Assembly: GCA_018969485.1 (NCBI GenBank)
Contig: JAGWYG010000033.1
Coordinates: 1-33,094 of the forward strand
Length of the DNA: 33,094 nt
Direction of reading: 5' to 3'
Source: Chloroflexota bacterium
GTDB taxonomy: Bacteria; Chloroflexota; Chloroflexia; Chloroflexales; Roseiflexaceae
Below the pieces are notes generated by a model, which saw nothing but the letters and a program-made list of their open reading frames with translations, was not told where the DNA came from and made no database searches. The translations under genes and the position numbers were made by a program. Shown piece by piece: positions 8,733 to 30,641 of the stretch. Each line of letters opens with the position of its first letter. Position 1 is the stretch's first letter.

Positions 8733-9803
8733 ATGAAGATGACCATCATCGGTCTGGCCAACAGCGGCAAGACCACGGTGTTTAACGCGTTGACGCGCAA
8801 TACCATCGAGACGACGACGTACAGTTCGGGGCAGCTCGAGCCCAACCTCGCCACCGTGAAAGTTCCCGACGCGCGGCTCGAGGCGCTCGCGCGCATCTTC
8901 CAGCCGCGCAAGGTGACCTATGCCGATGTCCAGTACATCGACATCGCCGGAATCGGTGGCGGAACCCCCGGCAGCGGCCTGCCGCCCGCGCTGCTCAACT
9001 ACCTCGGCGGCGCCGACGCGCTGCTGCACGTCGTCCGTGGCTTTGCTGCCGACGACGTGCCGCACCCGGAAGGGCGCGTCGATCCGGCGCGCGACATCGA
9101 GGCGATCGACCTCGAGCTCGCCTTCTCCGACATGGCGATCATCGAGCGGCGCCTGACCCGGCTCAACGCCGAGATCAGCAAGATGCCGCTCAAGGAGCGC
9201 GAGATCCGCACAGGCGAGCGCGATCTGCTCGTCAGGCTGCAGAGCCAGCTCGAAGCCGGCATTCCGATCCGCGACATCGCCCTGAACGACGACGAGGCAC
9301 GCCTGCTGCGCGGCTACCAGTTCCTCACCGCGAAGCCGATGCTCATCGTCATCAACATCGGCGAAGCACAGCTCGCCGCGCCCGCTCCCGTCATCGGCCA
9401 GCATCGTATCGTCGCGTTGTGTGGCAAGATCGAGGCGGAGCTCGCCCAGCTCGACGACGACGACGGGCGCGTCTTCATGGACGATCTCGGCATCAGTGCG
9501 CCCGCGCGTGACCGTGTGATCGCACAGACCTACGAACTGCTCGGGCTGATCAGTTTCCTGACCGCCGGCCCCGACGAGGTGCGTGCCTGGCCGATCCGGC
9601 GCAACACGCCCGCCGTCGAAGCTGCCGGAACGATCCACACCGACATCCAGCGCGGCTTCATTCGCGCCGAGATCGTCGCCTATGAGGATCTGATGCGCTC
9701 CGGCAGCATACCCGAAGCGCGCAAGGCCGGCACGGTCCGCATGGAAGGCAAAACCTACATCGTGCGCGATGGCGACGTGTGCCATTTCCTGTTCAATGTC
9801 TGA
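8733..9803 (+). CDS. YchF/OLA1-like GTPase/ATPase with TGS domain
   Basis: A 356-residue TRAFAC P-loop NTPase. G1 is GLANSGKT (7-14), G3 is DIAG (70-73) and the G4 position is N208-I-G-E211, the NxxE that lets YchF proteins bind ATP. A coiled helical domain lies between (about 125-190), and the C-terminal 75 residues are a TGS domain (TAGPDEVRAWPI...DIQRGFIRAEIVAYEDL). In well-known YchF proteins G1 is GLPNVGKST and switch I contains a conserved NYPF segment. Both differ here, so it may be a divergent paralogue. Known members bind ribosomes and act in stress responses. ATG 8733 has GGGAG at 8721-8725. The FtsW/RodA gene follows after 15 bp. Confidence 0.85.
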   Translation: MKMTIIGLANSGKTTVFNALTRNTIETTTYSSGQLEPNLATVKVPDARLEALARIFQPRKVTYADVQYIDIAGIGGGTPGSGLPPALLNYLGGADALLHVVRGFAADDVPHPEGRVDPARDIEAIDLELAFSDMAIIERRLTRLNAEISKMPLKEREIRTGERDLLVRLQSQLEAGIPIRDIALNDDEARLLRGYQFLTAKPMLIVINIGEAQLAAPAPVIGQHRIVALCGKIEAELAQLDDDDGRVFMDDLGISAPARDRVIAQTYELLGLISFLTAGPDEVRAWPIRRNTPAVEAAGTIHTDIQRGFIRAEIVAYEDLMRSGSIPEARKAGTVRMEGKTYIVRDGDVCHFLFNV

Positions 9804-9818
9804 GTCGGACGGCAGGCG

Positions 9819-11189
9819 ATGATGATATTCCGACGCGTGTTGGCACGCTTGCGGTTACGTGAGCTCCAGTTGATCGTCACCGCGTTGTTATTCTTCGCGT
9901 GTGGCTACATCCTGGTCGCCGCCACCACCGGCAGCCGCGCCGTCGTGCTCGATCGCGTCGGCATCGCCGACCTGCTCTGGCCGTCGATCGTTCCATCGCT
10001 GCTCTTCATCGGGATATCCCTGATGTTGAGCTGGCGCATGCCGAACGCCGATCAGTTCGTCCTGCCGCTGGTAGCATTGCTCGTCGGGCTCGGGCTGCTG
10101 ATGATGGCGCGGCTCGCGCCGGCGCTCGGCAGCGACTACGCCGACGTCGACTCGCGGCAGTCGCTGTGGGTCATGATCGGCATCATCGCCCTGGGCAGCG
10201 TGCTCTTCGTGCCATGGGATCAGCTGCTGCGTCGTTATCTGCGCACCAGCCTGATGGACTGGCTGGCGCACTACCGATACGTCTGGCTGGTCACCGGCAT
10301 CATGCTCATCCTGTCGACATTCGCCCTCGGCGTCGATCCGAACGGCAGCGGCGTGAAAGCCTGGTTCAACCTCGGGTTCTTTCACTTCCAGCCCTCAGAG
10401 CTGCTGAAGATCATCCTGGTCATCTTCCTGGCCTCCTATCTCGACGAACACCGCGAACTGGTGACGCGCAGCTATCACCTCGGGCCAGTCCGGCTGCCCC
10501 CGCTGCCCTACCTGGTGCCCCTGACCGGAATGTGGGGGCTGGCGATGGGTCTGATCATCTTCCAGCGCGATCTTGGCGCCGCACTGCTGCTCTTCTCGGT
10601 CTTCCTCGCCATGCTGTACGTCGCCACCGGTCGGGGCAGCTACGTCATCGCTGGCCTCAGCGCCTTCGCCATCGGCTCGTTCGCGCTCTACACCGTCGTA
10701 GCCGTCGTCCGCACGCGCGTGATGATCTGGCTCGACCCATGGATCGTCGCGCAGAGCTCGGGCTATCAGATCGTCCAGTCGATCTACGCCTTCGCATCCG
10801 GCGGCCTGTTTGGCAGTGGGCTAGGCCGGGGCGTGCCCACCGTCATCCCGGCAGTGCACACCGATTTCATCTTCAGCGCCATCGGCGAGGAGCTCGGGCT
10901 CGCCGGCAGCATTGGCGTCCTGATCGCCTACCTGCTGCTCATCGGCCGGGGGTATCACATCGCGCTGCGCATCCCGGGTCGATTCCGCGGATTCGAGCAA
11001 CTCATGGCGGTCGGTCTGACGACCATCCTGGCGATGCAGACATTCATCATCATCGCGGGGAACGTGCGGCTGATCCCGCTCACCGGAATCACGCTGCCAT
11101 TCATCTCGTACGGTGGCTCGTCGATCCTGATGAACTTCGTCATCATCGGGCTCCTCCTGCGGATCTCGGCGGGCGAGCGCCGCAACTGA
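9819..11189 (+). CDS. FtsW/RodA/SpoVE family (SEDS) protein
   Basis: A 456-residue polytopic protein with about ten membrane helices, of the SEDS glycosyltransferase family that polymerises lipid II into peptidoglycan with a partner class B penicillin-binding protein. Family landmarks: the FQRDLG segment, the large outer loop around DPW-x7-GYQ, SGGLFGSGLGRG, then DFIFSAIGEELG and the closing LPFISYGGSS. Whether it acts in division (FtsW) or elongation (RodA) cannot be told. ATG 9819 (or 9822) has GGCAGG just upstream. It lies 15 bp after the YchF-like gene, so the two are probably co-transcribed. No penicillin-binding protein gene is in the window. Confidence 0.9.
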   Translation: MMIFRRVLARLRLRELQLIVTALLFFACGYILVAATTGSRAVVLDRVGIADLLWPSIVPSLLFIGISLMLSWRMPNADQFVLPLVALLVGLGLLMMARLAPALGSDYADVDSRQSLWVMIGIIALGSVLFVPWDQLLRRYLRTSLMDWLAHYRYVWLVTGIMLILSTFALGVDPNGSGVKAWFNLGFFHFQPSELLKIILVIFLASYLDEHRELVTRSYHLGPVRLPPLPYLVPLTGMWGLAMGLIIFQRDLGAALLLFSVFLAMLYVATGRGSYVIAGLSAFAIGSFALYTVVAVVRTRVMIWLDPWIVAQSSGYQIVQSIYAFASGGLFGSGLGRGVPTVIPAVHTDFIFSAIGEELGLAGSIGVLIAYLLLIGRGYHIALRIPGRFRGFEQLMAVGLTTILAMQTFIIIAGNVRLIPLTGITLPFISYGGSSILMNFVIIGLLLRISAGERRN

Positions 11190-11266: not shown

Positions 11267-12343
11267 GTGAGCTACACCTTGCCACTCGGCCCATTCCACC
11301 CAGGGCTGCTTGCCCCACAGGCGTTCGTCTTTCGCGTCACCGACGAGCACATCGTCGACGTGGAATACCAGAACGGGGTCAACGAGCGGAACTGTGCCGA
11401 GCGCATGGTGCGCCTTGATCCCGCATCAGCCTTCTTTCTCGCCAGCCGCGTGTGTGGCGAGTGTTCATTCGCCCACGCCGCAGCATTCAGCACTGCGGTC
11501 GAACAGCTCTGCGGCCTGACGCTCTCGCGGCGGGCGCAGCAGCTACGCGTGGTCGCCGCCGAGCTCGAGCGCAGCATCGCGCATCTGCGTGGCAGCGCCG
11601 GCGTCCTCGAGGCAGCCGGCATGACGGTGCGGGCGCGGCCGCTGCTCGCCGTACGCAGCGAGCTCATCGGGTTGTTCGAGCGGCTCACCGGCGCACGGAT
11701 CGCCGCCGACTACTGCGTGCCCGGCGGGCTGAGCCGTGATCTCGGGCAACTCCAGCGCAAGGAGATCCTCACCGGCCTGTCCGGCCTGGAGCGCACGCTC
11801 TACACCGAAGTCGATCTGCTGATCGATCACCAACTCCTGCTCCTGCGCACCATCGACGTCGGCACGATCCTGCGCGCCGCCGCCGAGCAACTCGGCGTAC
11901 GCGGGCCGCTGGCGCGCTCTGCCGGCGTTGCCCGCGACACCCGGAGCGACATGCCCTACTGGATCTACGGCGAGTACGGTTTCAGCCCGGTCGTGCAGGA
12001 AGGTGGCGACGTCTACGCGCGCCTGGTCGTCCTGCTGCTCGAAGCCTACGAGAGCATCAAGCTTGCGGAGCGCTGCGTCCGCGAGCTCGACGACGCGCCC
12101 TCGCGCGGCACCTTTCCCGCCGAGGTGCCGTCGGGCAGCGCCAGCGCCACCATCGAGGGGCCGCGTGGCCGGATCCGGTATGCCATCGAAAGTGACGGAA
12201 CCCGCCTGACGACGGTGCGCATCGATACGCCGCGTCAGTTCGACCGACTGCTGGTGCGCACATTCTTCAGCGGTGCCGCCATCGACAACGCGGCGTTGAT
12301 CGCCGCATCAGCGTATCCGTGCATCGCCTGTGCCGAGTGTTGA
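11267..12343 (+). CDS. Group 4 [NiFe]-hydrogenase-like large (catalytic) subunit
   Basis: A 358-residue protein related to Complex I NuoD and to HycE/EchE-type hydrogenase large subunits. The N-terminal LGPFHPG...DEHIVDVEYQNG matches the start of this family. The L1 motif RVCGECSFAH places Cys63 and Cys66. The C-terminus PCIACAEC places Cys352 and Cys355, plus a final Cys358. True NuoD proteins have lost these cysteines, so a Ni-Fe site is plausible. The usual DPC of L2 is YPC here, and the protein ends three residues after the second pair, leaving no tail to cleave. GTG 11267 follows CGGGG at 11256-11260. It is the first gene of a six-gene cluster. H2 activity is an inference; the family is clear. 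Confidence 0.82.
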   Translation: MSYTLPLGPFHPGLLAPQAFVFRVTDEHIVDVEYQNGVNERNCAERMVRLDPASAFFLASRVCGECSFAHAAAFSTAVEQLCGLTLSRRAQQLRVVAAELERSIAHLRGSAGVLEAAGMTVRARPLLAVRSELIGLFERLTGARIAADYCVPGGLSRDLGQLQRKEILTGLSGLERTLYTEVDLLIDHQLLLLRTIDVGTILRAAAEQLGVRGPLARSAGVARDTRSDMPYWIYGEYGFSPVVQEGGDVYARLVVLLLEAYESIKLAERCVRELDDAPSRGTFPAEVPSGSASATIEGPRGRIRYAIESDGTRLTTVRIDTPRQFDRLLVRTFFSGAAIDNAALIAASAYPCIACAEC

Positions 12344-14081
12344 TGTGAGTGTAACGTTCATCTTCATCGTGCCACTCATCGTCGCGATCGTCTGCATCGT
12401 CGCCAGCGCGCGCGTCGCGACGCGCGTGCTCGGGCTGGCATCGGCGGCGAGCCTGCTGCTCGCCGCGCTGACGGTCGTCGCCATCCGCGTCGTCGGGCCC
12501 CTGCCGCAGACGCTGGTCAGCTACCCATGGGTCACGATCGCCGACCGGGAACTGCAGATCACGGCAGTGCTGAGCGAGACCACCTGGCTGCTTGCCCTGC
12601 TGCCGCTGATCGGTGGTGGCACCACAGCGCTGCTGCTGGCGCTGGCGATCGCACCGGCCCTGCGTGGCTTCGGCGCGCTGTTCGCCGCCGTGACCGCCGT
12701 CTCGGCGGTCGCCGCCGCGGGCATCCTGGGCGGCGACAGCGCCGCCGTACCGATCGCGTGGTCGATCGTCGCCGGCGGGAGTTTCATCGCCCTGCGCTCG
12801 AGCGGCGTCTTCAGCGAGCACGAGGCGCCGATGAGCATCGCGATCGGCGGGCAGACCGGCGCGCTGATGATCCTGGCCGTCGCCATGCTGACTCCACTCG
12901 CCAGCAGCGACCGATCGATCGACGTGTTGCGTACCGCGCTGCTGTTCATCGCCGTGGGTCTCACCGTCGGCGTGCTGCCGCTGTGGCGCGCTCCCGACGC
13001 GCTCGCCAGCGCGCCAGCCGCGCTCGCCGGCACGCTGCTCGCCTTCGGCACCCCGCTGCTGGGCGCCTCGGCGCTGGTGAGCTTCCTCGCCGACTCGCAG
13101 GTCATCGCCGAGCGGGGCTGGCGCGACGGCACCGCGGCAGTCGGCATCGCCATCGCGCTGCTGAGCGCATTCGGCGCCCTGGGTGCCCGTGGCCTGCATC
13201 AGACGATCGGCCGGCAGCATCTCGCGCACATTGGCTTCATCATCGCCGCCAGCGCCACCGAGATCGGCCGCGAGGTCATCGCGCCGCTGCTGATCGTCAA
13301 CGCCGCGCTGAGCAGCTTCGTCATGATGCTCGCCCTCGTCCCGCTCAACCGGCGTGCCGATGACGACCGGCTGGAATCGATCACCATCGAGCAGGCCGCC
13401 GCCGTTCCCGGCGTCCTGTTCTTCATCGGTGCCGCCTCGGCGATCGGCATTCCCGGCACGCTCGGGTTCTGGGGGCGCCTGTGGTGGCTCGACGAGATCC
13501 GCACCGTCATTCCATGGCTCGTCGCGCCGGCCCTCGCCACGCTCGCGCTGCTGCTGGTCAGCTCGCTCGCCCCGGTCGCGGCGGTCATCCGCCCGCTGGC
13601 GGCGCGCCAGCGGCGGGGCCGGATGGCGTTCACTGATGCGGCCCAGGCATCCGCCGCCATCCTGGCCAGCCCGCTGATCGTGCTGGGCATTGCGCCGAAC
13701 ATTGCCTGGAACCTGTGGCTGACGACGCCGCTCGGCGCCGGCGTATCGATCGCCGACCTGGTGCGGTTGCCCGATGTTCCCGGCATGATCGCGGCGGCCA
13801 CTGCGGCGACGGCCAGCATTGCGATCATCGTCATCGCCCGGCGCGCGCCACGGCCGATGCCCGAGCTGGATGCCCGGATCGCCGATCATGGCATCATCGC
13901 GCCGCGCGCCATCGCGGGCGGCGTCAGCACCACGCCCAACCTGGCGCGGCGCCCGCAGTCGTGGTGGGAGTGGCTGCGGCGCATCGGCGAATGGCTCAAC
14001 CGGCTCTCGCCGTTCGAGCAACGATACTACATGGCCAGCCTCGTGATCTCGCTGCTGGTCATGCTGCTGCTGTTCTTCTGA
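12330..14081 (+). CDS. NuoL/MrpA-like antiporter-type membrane subunit, divergent
   Basis: A 583-residue very hydrophobic protein with about 14 helices, in the place where group 4 hydrogenases and Complex I carry a NuoL/HyfB/F-like proton-channel subunit. The central GLHQTIGRQHLAHIGF resembles the conserved stretch that precedes the channel half in the Proton_antipo_M family, and GIPGTLGFWGRLWWL resembles the later loop (usual GxPxxxGFxxK). The lysine of that loop appears as Arg. The usual WE...GL helix with its buried Glu reads WSIVAGGSF. GTG 12330 overlaps the large-subunit stop by 14 bp; GTG 12345, directly after that stop, is an alternative. Membrane-arm assignment is by similarity of pattern and by neighbours, and is less sure than for the redox subunits. 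Confidence 0.65.
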   Translation: MPSVDVSVTFIFIVPLIVAIVCIVASARVATRVLGLASAASLLLAALTVVAIRVVGPLPQTLVSYPWVTIADRELQITAVLSETTWLLALLPLIGGGTTALLLALAIAPALRGFGALFAAVTAVSAVAAAGILGGDSAAVPIAWSIVAGGSFIALRSSGVFSEHEAPMSIAIGGQTGALMILAVAMLTPLASSDRSIDVLRTALLFIAVGLTVGVLPLWRAPDALASAPAALAGTLLAFGTPLLGASALVSFLADSQVIAERGWRDGTAAVGIAIALLSAFGALGARGLHQTIGRQHLAHIGFIIAASATEIGREVIAPLLIVNAALSSFVMMLALVPLNRRADDDRLESITIEQAAAVPGVLFFIGAASAIGIPGTLGFWGRLWWLDEIRTVIPWLVAPALATLALLLVSSLAPVAAVIRPLAARQRRGRMAFTDAAQASAAILASPLIVLGIAPNIAWNLWLTTPLGAGVSIADLVRLPDVPGMIAAATAATASIAIIVIARRAPRPMPELDARIADHGIIAPRAIAGGVSTTPNLARRPQSWWEWLRRIGEWLNRLSPFEQRYYMASLVISLLVMLLLFF

Positions 14082-14124
14082 TGACGACGCAGATGATCCG
14101 GCATGCTGCGGGGGAGGCGCCGCG

Positions 14125-14838
14125 ATGAACGACACCAACTGGGTTCTGGTCGGGATCGGCATCTCGGGCGGCCTGATCCTGCTGCTGCGCGACTGGCGCC
14201 TCACCGTGCCGGCGCTGCTGATCAACTATGGCTGCATTGCGGCATTCCTGGCACAGCAGCAGTTCCTCGCCGCCGATCTGGTCATCTCCGGCGTCGAGCT
14301 CAGTTCGACCGTGCTGGTCAAGGTGATCACTGGCTTTGCCACGACCAGCATTCTGGCGATCACCGCGCTGACGTTTTCGCGCGAGTATAACCAGGAGAAC
14401 CTGGACGAGTTCTCGCTGGCCGAACTGCGCCGCGCCGCGCGCCGCGCCCAACGCGAGCGCGCGTCCCAGCCGTTTCATCTCGGCGACTATGTGGTGCCGT
14501 TCTGGTCGCTGGTGCTCGCGGGCATCGCCAGCCTGGCCTTGCCGCGGCTCTATCCGATCGGCAGCTACGAGGTCGACTTTGTGTGGTACTGGTTGGGGTT
14601 CACCGGCTTGTTCACGCTCGTCACTGCCAACGATATGCTCAAGATCGGGCTGGGTCTGCTGCTGATCGCGGGCAGCATCGATATGCTCTATACTGCGATC
14701 TCACGTACGGTGCAGATCTTCCCGCTGGCGATGCTGAGCCTGATGACCATCGTCCTCGCACTGGCGATCGCTTACTTGAGCGGCTTGCTGTTCAGCCGGC
14801 TCAAGACGCTCGAGCTCAATGAACTCTATAAACCATAA
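14125..14838 (+). CDS. HyfE-like (NuoK-related) membrane subunit
   Basis: A 237-residue membrane protein with six or more helices and one basic, Ala/Arg-rich cytoplasmic linker (about residues 95-120). Its size and gene position fit HyfE, the NuoK-related subunit of formate hydrogenlyase-2-type complexes, which links the antiporter-like subunits to the NuoH-like part. ATG 14125 has an excellent site, GGGGGAGG, at 14109-14116. It lies between the NuoL-like and NuoN-like genes with short gaps. The call rests on context and topology more than on motifs; another small membrane subunit is possible. Confidence 0.55.
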   Translation: MNDTNWVLVGIGISGGLILLLRDWRLTVPALLINYGCIAAFLAQQQFLAADLVISGVELSSTVLVKVITGFATTSILAITALTFSREYNQENLDEFSLAELRRAARRAQRERASQPFHLGDYVVPFWSLVLAGIASLALPRLYPIGSYEVDFVWYWLGFTGLFTLVTANDMLKIGLGLLLIAGSIDMLYTAISRTVQIFPLAMLSLMTIVLALAIAYLSGLLFSRLKTLELNELYKP

Positions 14839-14852
14839 CGCACGGTGGTGAG

Positions 14853-16307
14853 ATGCCGTATCTGTTGTTGATCGCCTTTCCGATCATGATGGGGGCCAGC
14901 CTGTTCATGATCCGAAAGCAGACGCAGTTGACATTAGGGTTAGCGTGCGTGATTGCGCTGGCGCAGATCGTGCTGGTGACCCAGTTGCCGATCGACACGC
15001 CGTCGCGGCTGCTTGGTCTGACGTTGACGCTCGATCCGCTCGGCAGGCTGTTCCTCATCACCTTCGTCGCCATCAGCGCGCTGGCATTCGTCATCGCCTG
15101 GATGTTGCCGCATGGCGAGCACTTTGCGCCGATCACGCTGGTGATGCTCGGGCTGATCAGCTCAATCATCGTCTTCCTGCAGGAGCCATTTGTCGTCGCG
15201 CTGTTGCTCGTGAGCGTCGGTCTCGTCGCCGTGCTGGCGATCATCGATCTCCCGACCGGCAGCCGGCAACTCGTCGAGCGCACAGCGCTCGCCGCTGCGC
15301 TGAAGTACCTGGTGATGATGACGCTCGCCGGCGTGATGATGTACATGGGGTTCGTGCTGGTGAGCATCTACACCCCGGGCGAATTCCCCGGGCGCATTTC
15401 GCCGGCGCATCTCGTGCTCGGTCTGCTGGCGATCGGCTTCGGGCTGCGGCTCGCGATCCTGCCATTCCACTCATGGCTCCCCGATCTGGCCCGCGAGACC
15501 TTTCCGATGGTGTCGGTGCTGGTGATCGGCGTGATCAACGCCACCAGCCTGTTGTTCCTGGTCAGCGCGCTGCAATTCTTCCCGGTGATCGTCCTCGAGA
15601 ATGCGCGTGGCCTGACGGTGCTGATGTGGATCGGCGCCATCACGGCGGTGTATGGGGCGCTGCTCGCGCTGGCGCAGCCCGAGATGCGGCGCATGATCGG
15701 GGCGCTGCTCGTCTCGAACTCGGGGATGATCATCTTCGGCATCGCGAGCACCAGCATCAAGGGGCTCACCGGCGCGCTGTTCGAGAGCTTCAACCAGTTG
15801 ATCGTCCTGGCGCTGCTGTTCGTCGCGATCGCGCTGCTCGAGCGCCCGGACGGCCGCCCGACCAATGTCGTGCGGCGTGATCTGCTGTGGCGCTGGCCGA
15901 TCGCCGGCGCCGGCCTGATCGGCGGCGTGATGGCGCTGCTGGGCGTCCCGCCATTCGGCGGGTTCGCCAGCAAACTGCTGCTCTACGAGGCGGCGGCGCA
16001 GCTTGATGGCCGGTACCTGGCGCTGTTCCTGGCCGCCACCTCGCTCGGGCTGGTCGCGCTGGTACGGCTGGCGCAGAATCGGCTGCTGGGCCCACCGGAG
16101 GAGCAGCCGGTCGACGAGCAGCCAGTCCTGCTGGGCACCACCGAACTCGACCGGCCCGCCGAGCGGCGGCTGGATCCCGAGCCGCGCGGCCTGGCGATCG
16201 TGACGCTGGTGCTGCTCGGGGCGTGTCTGGTCGTCGGCGTCTTCCCCCAGCCGATCATCGCGACGATTGCCGAGGTCGTGCAGGGGCTGACGTTCGTGCG
16301 TGCGTGA
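14853..16307 (+). CDS. NuoN/HyfF/MrpD-like antiporter-type membrane subunit
   Basis: A 484-residue protein with about 13-14 helices of the Proton_antipo_M type found in Complex I and group 4 hydrogenases. Recognisable parts: AALKYLVM with the helix-7 type lysine (around residue 150), LPFHSWLPDLARETFPMVSVL with its histidine and proline breaks, and GVPPFGGFASKLLLYEAA with the second lysine of the broken helix 12. The helix that normally holds the buried Glu (helix 5) reads FVVALLLVSVGL and has none. ATG 14853 is preceded by GGTGGTGAG. It lies 14 bp after the HyfE-like gene. It is the most convincing channel subunit of the cluster. Confidence 0.78.
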   Translation: MPYLLLIAFPIMMGASLFMIRKQTQLTLGLACVIALAQIVLVTQLPIDTPSRLLGLTLTLDPLGRLFLITFVAISALAFVIAWMLPHGEHFAPITLVMLGLISSIIVFLQEPFVVALLLVSVGLVAVLAIIDLPTGSRQLVERTALAAALKYLVMMTLAGVMMYMGFVLVSIYTPGEFPGRISPAHLVLGLLAIGFGLRLAILPFHSWLPDLARETFPMVSVLVIGVINATSLLFLVSALQFFPVIVLENARGLTVLMWIGAITAVYGALLALAQPEMRRMIGALLVSNSGMIIFGIASTSIKGLTGALFESFNQLIVLALLFVAIALLERPDGRPTNVVRRDLLWRWPIAGAGLIGGVMALLGVPPFGGFASKLLLYEAAAQLDGRYLALFLAATSLGLVALVRLAQNRLLGPPEEQPVDEQPVLLGTTELDRPAERRLDPEPRGLAIVTLVLLGACLVVGVFPQPIIATIAEVVQGLTFVRA

Positions 16308-16350
16308 GAGATGACCGTGATTTCAGGCGGCGAAGGGCGATGAACTGATC

Positions 16351-16725
16351 ATGATCCGTATCTTTCGCGTCAACAGTGGTTCATGCGGTGCATGCGATCT
16401 GGAGATCATCGCCACCGTCGAGGCGACGCCCGAACTCGCGTGGGCGGTCAGCCCGGCCGAGGCCGATGCGTTGTTGCTGACCGGGCCGATCACTGCGGCG
16501 GCGCGCGCTACGGTGCTGGGGCTGCTGCGCGAGTATGGCGAGCGCATCCCGGTGGTTGCCGTCGGACGGTGTGCCATCGATGGTGCACCATTCGGTCGCG
16601 GCGGAGTCGCGGCGCACCCCGATCTGAAGATCGCCGTACGCATCCAGGGGTGTCCAGTCGCGCCCAAGACCATCGTCGCGGCGGTCCGTACGGCACTTGA
16701 GCGACAACGCGAGGGGATCCAATGA
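16351..16725 (+). CDS. Group 4 hydrogenase / NuoB-like small subunit
   Basis: A 124-residue protein of the NuoB/HycG/EchC family, which carries the 4Fe-4S cluster that passes electrons to or from the catalytic subunit. Four ligands are visible: Cys12 and Cys15 in SGSCGACDLE, Cys74 in VGRCAIDG and Cys101 in IQGCPVAP. The C-x-x-C spacing with a following acidic residue is that of hydrogenase-type small subunits; Complex I NuoB has adjacent cysteines. The protein is about as short as the family allows, with no membrane anchor. ATG 16351 has no closely spaced site (AAGGGCG lies about a dozen bases upstream). The NuoH-like ATG overlaps its stop by four bases, which suggests coupled translation. 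Confidence 0.82.
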   Translation: MIRIFRVNSGSCGACDLEIIATVEATPELAWAVSPAEADALLLTGPITAAARATVLGLLREYGERIPVVAVGRCAIDGAPFGRGGVAAHPDLKIAVRIQGCPVAPKTIVAAVRTALERQREGIQ

Positions 16726-17540
16726 CCAATGTGTTGCTCGCTGCCGCGCTGTATCCCGGGTTGGCGTCCGTGGTCGTGCTGGTGGTGATCACCGCAGTCC
16801 TCGGCGGCGAACGCCCGGTGCTGCGGCTGGTGTTCCAGCGGGGATCACGTCCGGGGTTTGATGGGCTGGTGAACGCAGCGAGCATGATCATGGCCCTCGC
16901 GGCGGTGATCGTCGCGCCCTGGCCGCTACATCCCGCACAGGGAGATTCGGTCGTCGGCGATCTGGTGGTGCTGTTCTTCTGCATCGAAGCGGCATCGCTG
17001 CTGCCGGTGCTCGCCGGAACGATCACCCGGTCGCCGCTGGCGATGCGGGCTGCGAGCCGCACGCTACAGCTCGGCGTCGCCGGGCGCGCGGTCATCTGGC
17101 TGGCGATCGGGGCGACGGCGATCGATGTCGGCGACGGGCCGGAGTACTGGATCGCACGCGTCATGCTGGCGGTCGCATCGGTGCTGGCGCTCCCGGCGGC
17201 GCTCGGCGTCGGGCCGTTCGCCGTCGAGTGGGGGCTGACCCCAGCGGGGATGGAGGAGGGGCTGGGCGCGGGCGAAGCCGAGCGCGCGCGGCTGGCGCGG
17301 CTGATGCGCAATGCCGCGATGATTGCGGTGACGCTGGTCTATCTGGTGCCGCGCGATGCGCCGATCATCAGCGCGGGCGTCATCGTCGCCTGCTTTCTTG
17401 TCCTCACGGTCGCGTTCAGCCGCCTCACCGCGCTGCCGCGGTTTCCACTGCCTGCCGGATTGCGCTGGTGCTGGTTCGTCGCCGCGCCGCCGGCCGTGCT
17501 CGCCACCCTGTGGCTGGCATGGCTGGCGGTTCAGCAGTGA
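16722..17540 (+). CDS. NuoH/HycD/EchB-like membrane anchor subunit
   Basis: A 272-residue protein with about seven or eight helices. The segment GLTPAGMEEGLGAGEAERARLARLMRNA near residue 170-195 (key Glu residues) has the layout of the NuoH loop PF-x-L-P-E-x-E-x-E-L-x-x-G that faces the quinone or redox module, and an acidic helix FFCIEAASL precedes it. In the family this subunit joins the redox arm to the proton channels. It is shorter than NuoH (about 320), as in HycD/EchB. ATG 16722 overlaps the small-subunit stop by four bases. The ABC ATPase starts 6 bp after its stop. Confidence 0.7.
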   Translation: MTNVLLAAALYPGLASVVVLVVITAVLGGERPVLRLVFQRGSRPGFDGLVNAASMIMALAAVIVAPWPLHPAQGDSVVGDLVVLFFCIEAASLLPVLAGTITRSPLAMRAASRTLQLGVAGRAVIWLAIGATAIDVGDGPEYWIARVMLAVASVLALPAALGVGPFAVEWGLTPAGMEEGLGAGEAERARLARLMRNAAMIAVTLVYLVPRDAPIISAGVIVACFLVLTVAFSRLTALPRFPLPAGLRWCWFVAAPPAVLATLWLAWLAVQQ

Positions 17541-17546
17541 TCGCCG

Positions 17547-18638
17547 ATGACCCTCGCGATTGATATTGATCAGCTGAAGAAGTCGGTGGCGGGCATGCCG
17601 GTCTTGCAGGAGTTCGCACTGCAGGTTCCGGCACATCTGTCGTATGGGCTGCTGGGGCCGGCGCGCAGCGGGAAGTCGCTGGTGCTCCAGATCATCCTGG
17701 GGCTGGTGCGCCCGGATCGTGGCATGGTGACGGTGCTGGGGCACCGCGTGACGCACCGCCGGCTGGAGCATGTCGGATACGTGCCGCCACGCCAGCCCTA
17801 CCATCCGCACATCACCGGTCGCGAGTATCTGCTGGAACTGGGCGCATTCAGCGGGCTGCGCGGCGCCCTGCTGCAGCGGCGGGTCGATGACCAGCTTGAT
17901 GCGGTCGAGCTCGCCGACGACGGCGATGCACCGATCTTCATGTACAGCCGCCTGATGCTGCAGCGCCTCGGTCTGGCCCAGGCGCTGCTGAATGACCCCG
18001 AGCTGATGCTGATCGATGAGCCGCTCGGCGGGTTGAACGCCGATGAGGCCGCGCAGCTGCTGCCGACGCTCCAGCGGCTGCGCAGCCGCGGCATCACGAC
18101 GCTGGCGGTGACGCGGGCGCCGGCGTTCGCCGAGGCATTCTGCGATCGCGTCGGCATCCTGACGGACGGGCGGGTCGCTGCCGAGTTCACCATCGCCGGG
18201 CTCCATGATGTCGGGCAATCGGTGACGATCCATCTGGGCGGGCTGCCGCCGGCGGTGCGCGGTGCGCTGCGCGCGCTCGGGCCGGCGGTGCGCTGCGAGG
18301 ATCTGCGCGTGACGATCGAGCCAAATACGGCCGAGCTCCAGGCCGAGGTGCTGCGGACGCTGCTCGATGCCCGCGTGCCGATTCTGAGCCTCGATGGCCA
18401 GCGCCGGCCGCTGGAAGAGCTGTATCGCCGGGTCCTGAGCCATGATTACGTCCCGTCGCGGCGCAGTGATCCGCGCGCGACGCCGATCGAGACGCCGGTG
18501 GAGGCGCGCAGCGCCGCTGCCCGCGCGCGCCGTGCGGCGCTGCGTGCCGCCAATCGTGGCGAGACGCTGCTGCGCGATCTGATCCAGCGCGCGCCGGCGT
18601 CACCACCGGATGATCCTGCCACGCGCGATCAGGGGTAG
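17547..18638 (+). CDS. ABC transporter ATP-binding protein with altered signature and switch motifs
   Basis: A 363-residue ABC ATPase of the ABC-2 export type. Walker A is GPARSGKS (37-44) and Walker B is LMLIDEP (153-159) with catalytic Glu158. The signature normally reading SGGQ or SKGM is SRLM (134-137), losing the glycine that touches ATP, and the switch histidine position reads Arg190 (AVTRAP). The Q-loop is also atypical (VPPRQP). The 120-residue C-terminal extension after the usual domain is Arg/Ala-rich and not recognised. It starts 6 bp after the NuoH-like gene and precedes the permease gene by 87 bp. It is probably a functional pair with that permease, but with weakened or asymmetric ATP hydrolysis; that part is inference. 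Confidence 0.82.
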   Translation: MTLAIDIDQLKKSVAGMPVLQEFALQVPAHLSYGLLGPARSGKSLVLQIILGLVRPDRGMVTVLGHRVTHRRLEHVGYVPPRQPYHPHITGREYLLELGAFSGLRGALLQRRVDDQLDAVELADDGDAPIFMYSRLMLQRLGLAQALLNDPELMLIDEPLGGLNADEAAQLLPTLQRLRSRGITTLAVTRAPAFAEAFCDRVGILTDGRVAAEFTIAGLHDVGQSVTIHLGGLPPAVRGALRALGPAVRCEDLRVTIEPNTAELQAEVLRTLLDARVPILSLDGQRRPLEELYRRVLSHDYVPSRRSDPRATPIETPVEARSAAARARRAALRAANRGETLLRDLIQRAPASPPDDPATRDQG

Positions 18639-18664
18639 GGGCTCCGCACACACGAGGGGATGGC
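18638..18664 (+). repeat. 27-bp direct repeat, first copy
   Basis: GGGGCTCCGCACACACGAGG plus GGATGGC recurs at 18699-18725 with a single mismatch (T to G), 61 bp downstream. Both copies carry a GAGGGG ribosome-like site followed by ATGGC. The repeat fills most of the gap between the ABC ATPase and its permease. Confidence 0.8.
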
Positions 18665-18698
18665 TCCGGGCTGCACGGTTCGGTCGGTCCGGCAGCAA

Positions 18699-18725
18699 GG
18701 GGCGCCGCACACACGAGGGGATGGC
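18699..18725 (+). repeat. 27-bp direct repeat, second copy with the permease ribosome site
   Basis: Second copy of 18638-18664. Its GAGGGG (18715-18720) is the likely ribosome site for the permease ATG at 18726. Confidence 0.8.
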
Positions 18726-19484
18726 ATGCAACCGGCTGCATTGTTCACGCAGTTCACCCGCTTTACGCTGATGGAGTATCTGCGCTCCGGGCGCGCGCTG
18801 ATCGAGTTGTCGGCGACAGTCGCGATGTTTCTGGCAGCCATACGCGGTCGCGCCCTCGATGCGGAGAGCTTCTTCGCGAATGCTGCGCTGTTCTCGCTGG
18901 TGCTGGCACTGTATACCGGATCGACGATCATCGGGCTGGGCGATCGTCCCCATGGCTATCTGCTGGTGATCCGGCCGCTCGGGCGCACGGGGTACCTGGT
19001 CGGGCTCTACAGCGCCATCCTGATCGTCGTCGTCGTGTGCTACGCGCTGCTGTGCCTGCTGACGGCGATCGCCGCACCGGTGGAGGGCATGGGCGTGCGC
19101 GGCTGGCTGGCGGGGAGCGTGCCGCTGCTGCTGAATGTCGCGCTGCTGAGCGCGCTGCTGAGCCTGCTGGCGCCGTTCGTGCTGCCACCCGCCTGGCGCC
19201 TTGCGGTGCTGGCCCTGGTCGCCCTGGCGTTCTCCAGCAGCCTGCTGGGCGGTGCCACGCTGCAGTCGCTGCCGACGGCCGCGGTGCTGGTGCTCGAGGC
19301 GCTGCGCACCATCTCGGGGGCGCCGCTGATGCCGGCCTTCGCCGGCTATGCGCTGTCGGTGAGCCGCGACTACAGCGGCGTCGCGCCGCTGATTCCGCTG
19401 GCGCAGCTCACGCTGACGACGGGCATGCTCGCGATTGCGGTCTACTCGTTCAATCGGCGCGATCTGGCATTTGACGCCCCGTGA
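18726..19484 (+). CDS. ABC-2-type membrane permease subunit
   Basis: A 252-residue protein with six predicted helices, starting MQPAALFTQFTRFTLMEYLRSGR: an amphipathic interface helix followed by membrane spans, the layout of ABC-2 permeases. It follows an ABC ATPase, as expected. The frame is open from an ATG at 18660, but there the site abuts the ATG with no spacing, so I chose 18726, where GAGGGG is 5 bases upstream. It has no sequence that reveals the cargo. It converges with msrQ, 29 bp apart. Confidence 0.75.
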   Translation: MQPAALFTQFTRFTLMEYLRSGRALIELSATVAMFLAAIRGRALDAESFFANAALFSLVLALYTGSTIIGLGDRPHGYLLVIRPLGRTGYLVGLYSAILIVVVVCYALLCLLTAIAAPVEGMGVRGWLAGSVPLLLNVALLSALLSLLAPFVLPPAWRLAVLALVALAFSSSLLGGATLQSLPTAAVLVLEALRTISGAPLMPAFAGYALSVSRDYSGVAPLIPLAQLTLTTGMLAIAVYSFNRRDLAFDAP

Positions 19485-20100: not shown

Positions 20101-21054
20101 TCAATAGTTCGCTCGCAGATCCATCCCGGCGTACAGGCTGGCGACGTCGGCGGCGTATCCGTTGAACGGCAGCGTCTCGCGCCGCGACAGCTCGCCGATG
20201 CGGCGCTCGGTCGCCTGCGACCAGCGCGGGTGGGCGACGTCGGGGTTGACGTTGGCGTAGAAGCCATACTCGTGCGGCGCCGACGCCATCCAGAGCGACG
20301 TCGGCTGGGCCGCGGTGAGCTCGATGCGAACGATTGACTTGATGCTCTTGAAGCCGTACTTCCAGGGTACGACCAGCCGCAGCGGCGCGCCGTTCTGGGG
20401 CAGCAGCGTCTGGCCGTACAGCCCGGTGGCGAGGATGGTCAGGTCGTGGCGCGCCTCGTCGAGCCGCAGCCCCTCGACGTACGGCCAGGTGAACCATGGA
20501 TCACGCTGGCCGGGCATGCGCTCCGGATCGTGCAGGGTCGTGAACCGCACATAGCCCGCCTCGGCGGTGGGCTCGGCCTCGGCGAGCAGCCGGTGCAGCG
20601 GAAAGCCCTGCCATGGAATGACCATCGACCAGCCCTCGACACAGCGCAGCCGATAGATGCGCTCTTCCTGGTCGAAGCGGCCGAGCAGATCCTCGATGGC
20701 GTAGGTCTGCGGGTTGCGCACCAGGCCGTCGACGGTGACCTGCCACGGCGTGGCGACGAACCCGGCCGACGCGCGTGCGACGGCCTCTTTGTCCATGCTG
20801 AACTCGTAGAAGTTGTTGTAGTTGGTGACTGAGTCGAAGTCGGTGAGCGGATCACCGCGCTCATCGGCCGTGCCCGCAGCCCGTGGTGCGGGCACGGCCG
20901 GCTGCGTCGGCGCGGGCATGGCGGGCTGTGCCGGCGCACCGCAGGCGACCAGCGCCGCGGCGGCCAGGCCGAGCGCCCCGGTGCTGCGCAGGAACTGGCG
21001 CCGCTGTCGGTAGAGCCATTCCGGAGTGATCTCGGAGGCGGGAATGCGATTCAT
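20101..21054 (-). CDS. msrP: MsrP, molybdopterin-dependent protein-methionine-sulfoxide reductase
   Basis: A 317-residue periplasm/envelope enzyme that reduces methionine sulfoxide in proteins, using a molybdenum cofactor. A twin-arginine signal is plain: RRQFL with Arg18-Arg19, a hydrophobic stretch and a lipobox-like LVACG, so it may be a Tat-exported lipoprotein. Cys138 in LRCVEGW ligates Mo. Other landmarks: [41 protein letters not shown] and the C-terminal [13 protein letters not shown] placed the start at the ATG ending at 21054, because [21 protein letters not shown] matches known MsrP starts and GGAGA lies upstream. Longer starts (21066, 21114) are possible but less likely. It is followed by msrQ. 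Confidence 0.93.
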
Positions 21055-21140
21055 GGCGGTCTCCATCCGTGTGCTGTGGGCCGCTGGGCCCGATGTGCCC
21101 ATGCCCGGGCGCATCGCCGCACCATCAGCATGTCACTGGT

Positions 21141-24087: not shown

Positions 24088-24828
24088 ATGATGCGCACGG
24101 TCTTGATCACGGGTGCGGCGGGCCGGATCGGCACGTTCCTCGCCGGGCAACTGGCCGGGCGCTACACGCTGCGCCTCAGCGATCGCGTGGCGGCGACGAC
24201 CGACGTCGCGCCGTTCGTGCCGGCGGATCTGGCGGTGTATGACCAGGTGCGCGCGGCGTGCGACGGCATCGACACGGTCGTCCATCTGGGCGCGGATCCG
24301 CGGGTCGACGCGCCGTGGGAATCGCTGCTGCCGGCCAACGTCGCCGGCACCTACCATGTCTTCGAGGCCGCTGCCGCGGCGGGCTGCCGCCGGGTGGTAT
24401 TCGCCAGCAGCATCAATGCGATGGGCGCATATCCCCACGATACCCAGATCCGGACCGACATGCCGCTACGCCCGGCGAACCTGTACGGCGCGACCAAGGC
24501 CTGGGGCGAGATCCTCGGCCGGCTGTACGCCGATACGCGTGGCCTGTCGGCGCTGTGCCTGCGCTTCGGCGCCGTGATCACCGGCCCGGTGCACCACTGG
24601 ATCTACCCCGGCAGCCCGTTCATGAGCGCAGTCCTGACGCTGCACGACCTGACGGCGCTGGTCGCTGCCGCCATCGACGCGCCCGACCGGCTGCGCTTCG
24701 GCATCTACCATGGGGTGAGCGCCAATCGCTGGCAACGCATGGATCTGAGCGATACCCGCGACGAGCTGGGCTACGCCCCGCAAGACGATGCGTTCGCCAT
24801 GCTGCCGGCGCCGGAGGCCGAACCATGA
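24088..24828 (+). CDS. NAD-dependent epimerase/dehydratase family, uronate dehydrogenase-like
   Basis: A 246-residue extended-SDR protein, shorter than sugar epimerases but the usual length of uronate dehydrogenase. The nucleotide loop is TGAAGRIG (8-15), HLGADPRVDAPWE is near 70, SSINAMG holds the catalytic Ser, and the Tyr/Lys pair is in LYGATKAWGE. The DLTALVAAAID and YHGVSANRW-x-x-MDLS segments also fit uronate dehydrogenase, which oxidises glucuronate or galacturonate to the aldarolactone. ATG 24088 is preceded by AGGAGG. The TGA overlaps the next ATG. Enzyme class is sure; uronate as substrate is likely but not proved. Confidence 0.8.
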   Translation: MMRTVLITGAAGRIGTFLAGQLAGRYTLRLSDRVAATTDVAPFVPADLAVYDQVRAACDGIDTVVHLGADPRVDAPWESLLPANVAGTYHVFEAAAAAGCRRVVFASSINAMGAYPHDTQIRTDMPLRPANLYGATKAWGEILGRLYADTRGLSALCLRFGAVITGPVHHWIYPGSPFMSAVLTLHDLTALVAAAIDAPDRLRFGIYHGVSANRWQRMDLSDTRDELGYAPQDDAFAMLPAPEAEP

Positions 24829-26297
24829 CGACCGACACCATCGTGATCGGCGGCGGGCTCGGCGGCCTGGCGGCAGCCATCACGCTCGCCGCGGCCGGCC
24901 ATTCCGTCAGCATCATCGAGCAGCTCGACCGCGTCGGCGGCAAGCTCAACCTGGTGGAGGTCGCCGGCTTCAGCTTCGACACCGGACCGTCGCTGCTGAC
25001 GATGCCCTGGGTGCTGCGCGAGCTGTTCGCCACCGCCGGCACCAGCCTCGAGGCCGAGCTGACGATCGAGCCGGTCGATCCGCTGTGCCGCTATGTCTGG
25101 TCGGATGGCACCGTGTTCGACATGACGCCGCATCTGCCGCGGCTGGCAGCCGAGATCGCGCGCCTCGAACCGGCTGATGTCGCCGGGTTCAGCCGCTTTC
25201 TTGGCTATACGGCACAGATCTATGATGCGGTCGCCGAACCGTTCCTCGCGCGGCCGTTTCGCGGGCTGCGCGACATGGTCAACCAGCGGATGCTGCGCGA
25301 TTCCCTGCGCATCGATCCGCTGCGCACGGTCGATCAGTCGCTGCGCACGTTCTTCCGCAGCCCACGGCTGCGCCAGGTGTTCGGCCGCTACGCCACCTAC
25401 AATGGCTCGTCGCCGTTTCGTGCGCCGGCGACGTTCAATCTCATCAGCTATGTCGAACTGACCCAGGGTGGCTGGCATGTCCGCGGCGGGATGTACCAGA
25501 TCGCCCGGGCGCTGGAACGCACGGCGCGCCGGCTGGGCGTCGAGATCCATACGGGCGTCGCCGTCAGCCGCATCGTCGAGCGCGATGGTGCGGTGGCGGG
25601 CGTGCAACTGGCCGACGGGAGCAGCATCGCTGCCCGAACGATCGTCGCCAACGTCGATCCGCGGATCGTCGCCGAGCGCCTGCGCGCGACGCCACAGCCG
25701 CGGCCTGCCGGCGAGCTGTCGTACAGCGGGTTCGTGCTGATGCTCGGCGTGCGGGGCGTCGATCCGCTGCTGCGGCACCACACGATCTTCTTCAGCGATG
25801 ACTACCGGCGCGAGTTCGACGCGATCGTCGGACGGGGCGTCCCGGCCGAGGACCCTACGGTGTACGTCTGTGCGCCGTCGGTGAGCGATCCGTCGGTCGC
25901 GCCGCCCGATCACAGCAATCTGTTCATCCTGGTGAATGCCCCGCACACCGGGCAGTACGCCCGCTGGCCCGCCGAGGCCGCGCGCTACCGCGAGCTGGTC
26001 CTCGATCGGCTCGAGCGCAACGGGCTGGCGGGATTACGCGGGCGCATCGTCGTCGAGCGCATGCTGACGCCCCATGATCTCGAGCAGCGCTACGCCGCGC
26101 CGGGTGGAGCGATCTACGGGCTGGCGTCGAACAACCCGTTCGCCGCGTTCCTGCGGCCGGCACAGCGCGCGGCCGGGCTGCGCGGGCTGTACTTCGCCGG
26201 CGGCGGGACACACCCTGGCGGCGGGATTCCGCTGGTGCTGCTGTCGGGGCGCGCCGCCGCACAGCACCTACTCGCCGATGCCGGCCAGACGCCCTGA
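24825..26297 (+). CDS. CrtI-family carotenoid desaturase / phytoene dehydrogenase-related oxidase
   Basis: A 490-residue FAD enzyme. The N-terminal dinucleotide fold is VIGGGLGGLAAAITLA, followed by DRVGGKLN and FDTGPSLLTMP, the CrtI pattern. The C-terminal GGTHPGGGIPLVLLSG is the second FAD-binding signature, here closer to CrtD-type (later carotenoid) desaturases than to STHPG-type phytoene desaturases. ATG 24825 overlaps the uronate-dehydrogenase-like stop as ATGA, so it is translationally coupled to a sugar gene, an odd partner. The 3' end overlaps the opposing glycosyltransferase by 30 bp. Desaturation of a carotenoid is the likely job, but a different isoprenoid or polyene substrate is possible. 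Confidence 0.82.
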   Translation: MTTDTIVIGGGLGGLAAAITLAAAGHSVSIIEQLDRVGGKLNLVEVAGFSFDTGPSLLTMPWVLRELFATAGTSLEAELTIEPVDPLCRYVWSDGTVFDMTPHLPRLAAEIARLEPADVAGFSRFLGYTAQIYDAVAEPFLARPFRGLRDMVNQRMLRDSLRIDPLRTVDQSLRTFFRSPRLRQVFGRYATYNGSSPFRAPATFNLISYVELTQGGWHVRGGMYQIARALERTARRLGVEIHTGVAVSRIVERDGAVAGVQLADGSSIAARTIVANVDPRIVAERLRATPQPRPAGELSYSGFVLMLGVRGVDPLLRHHTIFFSDDYRREFDAIVGRGVPAEDPTVYVCAPSVSDPSVAPPDHSNLFILVNAPHTGQYARWPAEAARYRELVLDRLERNGLAGLRGRIVVERMLTPHDLEQRYAAPGGAIYGLASNNPFAAFLRPAQRAAGLRGLYFAGGGTHPGGGIPLVLLSGRAAAQHLLADAGQTP

Positions 26298-29640: not shown

Positions 29641-30561
29641 TCAGGTGCCGGCGAGTTGCTGCAGCGCATCCTGCTCGAGCGCCTCGAGCCCGGCAGCATC
29701 GACCGCGGCCAGCACTCGCTGGCGTTCGTCGGCGGTCAGCGGGCGCTGCGGACGGCGCGGCGCGCCGCACGGGTAGCCCCAGCCCGACAGGATGACCTTC
29801 AGGCCGGCGATGACGGGCACCTCCAGCAGGGCGCGGATCACCCGGTTGGCGCGGAACTGCAGCGCCTGCGCCTGCGCCAGGTGCCCGCCGCGCCACGCCC
29901 GATACAGCGCGGCGAAGGTCGCCGGCATCACGTTGTAGGTGCTGCCGATGGCGCCGTGCGCGCCCATCACCAGCGCCGCCAGGCAGACCTCGTCGTTGCC
30001 CGAGAGCACCGTCAGTTCGTCGGGGAGCAGCTCAATGATGTTGCGCAGATCGAACAGGTTGTACGATGAGTACTTGATGCCGCGCACGGTGGGAATGGTG
30101 ATCAGCCGCGCCATGGTGCGCGCAGTGATCTCGACGCCCGTCGCCGACGGAATGTTGTACAGATAGACCGGCGTGCCGTCTGCCGCGTCGGCGATGCCCT
30201 GGTAGTGCGCGAGCAGGGCGTCGTCGTCGACGCGGAAGTAGACGGGCGGCACGGCGGCGACGGCGGCGACGCCGCAGCGCGCGGCGTGCGCGGCGAGCTG
30301 CCGGGCGCTGGCGCTGTCCAGCGCGCCGATGTGCGCGATGATCTGCCCGCGCCCGCCGTTGGCCGCCAGCACCGTCTCGAGGACGGCCTGGCGCTCGGCG
30401 ACGCTGAGCAGCAACCCCTCGCCGCTGCCGCCGCACACGAAGAACCCGGCGGCACCACGCTGCAACTGCACATCGACCAGCCGGCCGAGCGTCGCGTGGT
30501 CGATGACTGCGCCGTCGTCGTCCATCGGCGTCACCAGCGCCGGGAAGATGCCGTGTACCAT
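29641..30561 (-). CDS. DHDPS/N-acetylneuraminate lyase-family aldolase
   Basis: A 306-residue class I aldolase of the DapA/NanA family. The N-terminus [11 protein letters not shown] and the loop GGSGEGLLL are typical; the catalytic Tyr is in [10 protein letters not shown] and the Schiff-base Lys in GIKYSS. The GGSGEG loop differs from the TTGE of DapA and fits sugar-acid aldolases or lyases (2-keto-3-deoxy sugar acid type or sialic acid type). The neighbouring rhamnulokinase-like gene and the sugar enzymes elsewhere favour a sugar-acid role. I chose the ATG ending at 30561, since GGGAGG lies 7 bases upstream; ATG 30579 is possible. Confidence 0.85.
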
Positions 30562-30614
30562 GCCCAGACCTCCCTTCATTGAGGTGCCGCCGGCGCCACT
30601 GCCGCGGCGCGCCC

Positions 30615-30620
30615 AGTATA
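30615..30620 (-). promoter_or_regulatory. TATACT -10 box upstream of the aldolase
   Basis: TATACT is read on the minus strand at 30620-30615, about 54 bp before the aldolase start and 22 bp after the kinase stop. It could give the aldolase its own transcript. Confidence 0.35.
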
Positions 30621-30641
30621 GCATCGCCGCGCCGGCGCTCC

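Follow-up and report, generated by a model that had tools for sequence, protein, structure and literature searches.

The question raised by this locus is whether a compact six-gene block of a Chloroflexota bacterium, built like a group 4 [NiFe]-hydrogenase, encodes a working hydrogenase or serves another purpose. Complex I and its relatives are known for linking redox chemistry with the movement of ions, and the sequence-only reading had suggested that the block could belong to a group 4 lineage that does so too. We analyzed the block within a window of 33,094 nucleotides, the whole stretch of DNA under study, and compared it with its relatives in the order Chloroflexales and in the rest of the class; these comparisons showed homology, synteny, erosion of ligands, purifying selection, and co-occurrence. 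The results suggest, with a probability of roughly 0.6, that the genes do not encode a working [NiFe]-hydrogenase but a Chloroflexia-specific Ehr-type complex, which would have been repurposed away from H2 chemistry and would act in alliance with an ABC transporter. The complex is probably not a hydrogenase because residues for metal binding and proton pumping have been lost or replaced and because its usual company is an ABC transporter.

The conserved block (11267-19484) comprises the six genes of the complex, followed by an ABC ATPase and an ABC permease gene (Table 1). All six genes are present and co-directional in the order that had been claimed, namely, large, NuoL-like, HyfE-like, NuoN-like, small, and NuoH-like subunit, and the hydrogenase-type cysteines attributed to the redox pair are in place in the window (L1 RVCGEC and L2 YPCIAC in the large subunit; CGAC..C..C in the small subunit). 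Pfam matches were obtained for only three of the six proteins: the large subunit (Complex1_49kDa, 6e-39, plus a sub-threshold NiFe match), the NuoN-like subunit (Proton_antipo_M, 1.4e-22), and the small subunit (Oxidored_q6, 6e-11). The window's NuoL-, HyfE-, and NuoH-like proteins had no significant Pfam match. The AF2 model of the large subunit (pLDDT 92) had HycE as its best fold match in the PDB (TM 0.93). For the NuoH-like subunit, modeled at pLDDT 90.5, the top Foldseek matches in the PDB were all complex I NuoH/ND1 chains or Mbh/FHL homologues, with query TM-scores of 0.6-0.7, and the assignment is confirmed by this predicted fold. Support for the NuoL-like assignment comes from a weak match to NCBIfam NuoN (3.5e-6) and from the Proton_antipo_M match (3e-7) of the C. 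aurantiacus-type orthologue, and the HyfE-like assignment is supported by gene position and family alignment. The ABC ATPase matched ABC_tran in Pfam (1.5e-16), and its Walker A (GPARSGKS) and Walker B (LMLIDEP) motifs were read from the sequence; with the adjacent permease, the pair has the parts of an ABC-2 type exporter. The block contained no NADH module and no NuoC/I genes, no ferredoxin-type electron-input subunit was found in the block or its conserved neighbourhood, and a promoter scan of the block revealed no sigma-70 promoter.

Table 1. Genes of the conserved block, with positions in the window
Feature	Position	Strand	Remark
Large subunit (NuoD/HycE-like)	11267..12343	+	L1 RVCGECSFAH; L2 YPCIACAEC at C-terminus
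NuoL-like antiporter-type subunit	12330..14081	+	TM5 Glu replaced by S and TM7 Lys by T here
HyfE/NuoK-like membrane subunit	14125..14838	+	Hydrophobic residue at both NuoK Glu positions
NuoN-like antiporter-type subunit	14853..16307	+	TM5 Glu lost; TM7 Lys replaced by Arg
Small subunit (NuoB/MbhJ-like)	16351..16725	+	Four Fe-S cysteines present in window genome
NuoH/HyfC-like subunit	16722..17540	+	Coupling Glu of SYE motif replaced by Arg
ABC ATPase (DrrA/GldA-like)	17547..18638	+	Starts 6 bp after the NuoH-like stop
ABC permease, family without Pfam model	18660..19484	+	Order-restricted; co-occurs with the complex

Among 60 relatives, almost all had an orthologue of the large subunit, with E values from 1e-59 to 1e-222. 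A profile search over the class detected the large subunit in 76 of the 82 genomes of the order, including Chloroflexus, Roseiflexus, and Herpetosiphon (364-545 bits); a next tier of 206-288 bits came from the families f5, f6, and f8 of the class, in which the gene order is unchanged. Genomes G045, G054, and G003 are presumably C. aurantiacus, C. aggregans, and Roseiflexus RS-1. When 84,980 named genomes were scanned, close orthologues were confined to Chloroflexota records, with Herpetosiphon aurantiacus DSM 785, Roseiflexus MAGs, and Ca. Viridilinea among the named carriers. In an 81-sequence tree of the large subunit, which was a quick search with several long branches (L119, L130, and L137), the order-level family grouped as a single clade (SH-aLRT 98), and the class-level loci branched next to it. 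The clade stood apart from E. coli HycE/HyfG, MbhL, the Dehalococcoides-type Ech, and the broad cysteine-less Ehr clade among 14 group 4 reference sequences, in which subgroups 4b, 4c, and 4f-4i are thinly sampled. The suggestion of a separate, unclassified group 4-related lineage with conserved synteny therefore holds, because the orthologues are present in 76 of 82 genomes and occupy a deep monophyletic branch of their own, outside the group 4 references included in the tree; the block also recurs in other Chloroflexota, across Chloroflexales, far beyond chance. Some absences stem from fragmented MAGs, such as G012, in which the NuoH-like and small subunits lie on a contig and the large subunit was not found. 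The genes upstream of the block differ from clade to clade.

The membrane arm was compared with its proton-pumping relatives in alignments of 20-30% identity, anchored by conserved Trp and Pro residues. At the positions of E. coli NuoM E144 and K234, the NuoN-like family carries V, S, A, or L and Arg, respectively, and the NuoL-like family has lost both the TM5 Glu and the TM7 Lys throughout. The sister-clade loci L117 and L118 keep the Glu and Lys of the NuoL-like subunit; at L119, the pair is Glu and Arg. In the HyfE-like subunit, hydrophobic residues occupy the two NuoK Glu positions. In the NuoH-like subunit, the Glu of the SYE motif has become Arg, and only a reduced form of the acidic PFDxPEAExEL loop is left. 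Judged by these alignments, the canonical Glu/Lys proton pathway is lost across the order. The complex thus has the antiporter-like subunits of an Ehr complex, in its NuoN- and NuoL-like proteins, without the canonical Glu/Lys pair.

The small subunit was detected in 44 of the 82 genomes of the order and has been lost in most Chloroflexaceae; the complete putative Chloroflexus genomes lack it, with only two NuoB left. The loss of the small and NuoH-like subunits from Herpetosiphon was considered and ruled out, for the block is split in two in this genus and both genes lie in the second cluster, SSU-NuoH-ABC-ABCperm. The Herpetosiphon small subunit has none of the four Fe-S cysteines, that of KatS3mg057 has lost all four, and that of L118 (f5) has likewise lost them. 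The other subunits persist under constraint: pairwise NG86 comparisons of ten genome pairs, including Herpetosiphon and Chloroflexus, yielded dN/dS values of 0.008-0.30 for all subunits, low also in lineages already without ligands, which indicates that the complex is under purifying selection across Chloroflexales. These results bear on the possibility of a classical Ehr complex, in which Ni-free electron transfer, for example from an unknown donor through the small-subunit cluster to quinone, is coupled to ion movement. The relatedness to group 4 and complex I and the intact cluster motif in most f1 genomes are in keeping with such a complex. We nevertheless consider it unlikely, given that about half of the order has lost the small subunit or its Fe-S ligands while the remaining subunits stay under purifying selection and that the Glu/Lys proton pathway is gone.

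The ABC ATPase and permease genes follow the complex in f1, in f3 (with SSU-NuoH), and in most of f4. The permease family occurs in 78 of the 82 genomes of the order, compared with 1 of 76 in the rest of the class; the single outside carrier, G089, has a complex with a large subunit lacking all four cysteines. In f5 and f6, the complex keeps most of its large-subunit cysteines and the permease is absent. The transporter might still be a neighbour by descent only, and the complex might work by itself, for instance as a membrane scaffold or a passive ion channel. In f2 and G051, the ABC pair is encoded away from the complex, and the variable upstream neighbours point the same way. This explanation appears improbable, because linkage has been kept in f1, f3, and f4, even through the split of the Herpetosiphon operon, and co-occurrence is near-perfect, although shared ancestry of the order could by itself produce much of the latter. 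The preferred reading of an alliance with the transporter includes the proposal that the complex physically works with the ABC ATPase and permease of its block, which we hold less firmly. A link to gliding, considered in view of the GldA-like ATPase and the filamentous gliding habit of the order, was set aside; no direct evidence was obtained, and nothing specific was found in the literature.

All four Ni-ligand cysteines (CCCC) were present in 29 of 45 sequences of the order. At least one was lost in the other 16, whose states include CDCC, CHCC, SADD, ACCC, and CSCC, and a tree built without the motif columns implied at least eight changes of the four-cysteine state. Among the 29 CCCC sequences, 8 came from genomes without HypD and 14 lacked an accompanying small subunit. 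The L2 motif of the window reads YPCIAC in place of DPCxxC, with Asp changed to Tyr, and the large subunit has no C-terminal extension to cleave. Other f1 genomes have AVC or similar at L2; DPC is retained in most of f4, yet those f4 genomes lack the small subunit. HypD and HypC were absent from the window genome (95.6% complete) and from its congener. HypD was missing in 30 of the 60 relatives, nearly all of which carry the complex, and HypC was missing in all 22 HypD-less genomes tested; in the genus g8, HypD was absent in 11 of 11 sampled members, and the inspected members keep the four cysteines. The PF00374 signals in the window genome were all weak, the best being the large subunit of the complex itself (24.6 bits, under the family cut-off). 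Separately, the idea that the cysteines track HypD was dropped after an independent-pairs test, with only 3-5 pairs, revealed no association.

On this evidence, the complex is very unlikely to be a genuine, if divergent, group 4 [NiFe]-hydrogenase with activity in at least the Roseiflexus-like lineages, which combine the four cysteines with the small subunit and Hyp proteins. MbhL and HycE are the best solved relatives, and in Roseiflexus-type genomes activity is conceivable because four cysteines, an intact small subunit, and HypD coexist, but the L2 motif has no Asp-Pro there, as in most of f1. HypD-positive relatives carry other recognisable hydrogenases, and type-I hydAB and hyp genes have been described in Roseiflexus RS-1 (PMC5459899); HypD is probably present in Roseiflexus-type genomes because of these other hydrogenases. 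Moreover, the motifs are intact in the window genome and g8, yet Hyp proteins are missing, the block has no ferredoxin-type input, and the proton-path residues are lost in the whole order. The relatedness to group 4 hydrogenases in the sequence-only reading was thus upheld, whereas a [NiFe]-hydrogenase coupling redox chemistry to ion movement was not, because HypD and HypC are absent from the window genome, Ni and Fe-S ligands have been lost repeatedly in orthologues, and the proton residues are gone. That the complex is a decaying relic heading for loss, as might be concluded from the small subunit and catalytic ligands having been lost repeatedly, is hardly credible and was rejected, since it is contradicted by the dN/dS values of every subunit, ligand-less lineages included, and by the retention of the NuoH-like gene in 77 of 82 genomes and in all 56 high-quality ones.

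The alignments show the predicted H2 site and Fe-S cluster to have been lost as a lineage-by-lineage mosaic and the proton-transfer residues to have been lost as well. The repurposed complex that we favour may have descended from a redox-driven group 4-type ancestor, which would have been recruited in the Chloroflexales lineage to a new, largely non-redox role. Its large/small pair would sit over a NuoH-HyfE-NuoN-NuoL membrane arm, and the complex might serve as a structural or regulatory partner of the ABC exporter, or its membrane arm might be moved by ATP hydrolysis in place of electron transfer. In the most specific form of the latter option, electron transfer would have given way to ATP hydrolysis by the ABC ATPase, and the membrane arm with its NuoD/NuoB-type cap would form a device for transport or gating that is non-redox, coupled to the ABC proteins, and characteristic of Chloroflexales; we regard this form as rather doubtful. 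We infer that a non-redox role would extend to the lineage of the window, which has kept the cysteines and the cluster motif. As a counterpoint, the cysteines kept in the window and in 29 of 45 orthologues and the complete Fe-S motif of the window ask for a function. A residual metal-binding or redox-sensing role is possible in the window lineage because it retains four Ni-type cysteines along with the motif for the proximal cluster, and a quinone-linked role is possible where the small subunit is intact. The NuoD fold passes electrons in complex I without the need of Ni.

Ehr complexes are homologues of group 4 hydrogenases and complex I without Ni-Fe ligands and of unknown function (PMC6349859, PMC10284858). 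The Chloroflexales complex shares this homology, and Ni-Fe ligands are missing in many of its orthologues. However, it lies on a branch separate from the broad cysteine-less clade and has its own gene order; its cysteines are eroding and not uniformly absent, with four kept in the window, its small subunit is lost or stripped, its proton residues are lost, and it has an ABC partner. Hyc/Hyf (group 4a) contains the nearest large subunit in fold and profile (HycE, 238 bits) and a HyfE-like subunit, but our block differs in gene order and lacks the HycB/HyfA or HyfH electron-input subunits, the L2 Asp, and the C-terminal extension. Pyrococcus Mbh provided the best single-sequence PDB match of both redox subunits, whereas the present complex has lost the proton residues, has another subunit set, and has no Hyp proteins in the window genome. 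The DAB2 (DabA-DabB) CO2 uptake complex has a NuoL-type subunit in a non-redox setting, and DabB keeps its proton-transfer residues (PMC13144422); in contrast, the Chloroflexales complex has lost those of NuoL and retains NuoD/NuoB-type subunits.

Selection on both arms while the H2 site, Fe-S cluster, and proton residues were discarded would make this complex a natural experiment on other uses of the scaffold. The reading would further set automatic annotation right in Chloroflexus, Roseiflexus, and Herpetosiphon, where the genes are readily labelled as subunits of a hydrogenase or of NADH dehydrogenase. The available excerpts of the C. aurantiacus genome paper describe two complex I clusters, and the six-gene complex is not among them (PMC3150298). 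The complex resembles complex I in its NuoD/B/H/K/L/N-type folds and differs from it in that the block has no NuoA, C, E, F, G, or I genes. The window genome has two separate NuoD genes; in the search for orthologues among the relatives, the two NuoD genes scored approximately 1e-30, well apart from the large subunit.

Beyond the class, the closest relative may be the locus L130 (genome G233). Its large subunit, which carries the motifs LCGSAAHHH and LDICVAC, lies on a long branch, and its small subunit is intact.

Second loci of the energy-converting hydrogenase-related (Ehr) type were observed in two Chloroflexaceae genomes (L138 in G074 and L139 in G060); both belong to the broad cysteine-less Ehr clade, and their gene order differs. 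Loci of other Chloroflexota (L133-L136, L140, and L154) encode Hyf-like large subunits ending in FELCYxCxDR, the branch of which adjoins this cysteine-less clade.

The FtsW/RodA-family gene occupies the same upstream place in the two nearest relatives (L034 and L035); in other clades it does not stand there.

Genes flanking the block in the window
Feature	Position	Strand	Remark
YchF-type GTPase	8733-9803		
FtsW/RodA-family gene	9819-11189		immediately upstream of block
Oxidored_molyb domain protein (sulfite-oxidase-type molybdopterin)	20101-21114	(-)	3' of block
Phytoene desaturase family protein, CrtI/CrtD-type	24258-26297		3' of block
Long open frame ending in N-acetylneuraminate lyase/DapA-like domain	29641-31680	(-)	3' of block
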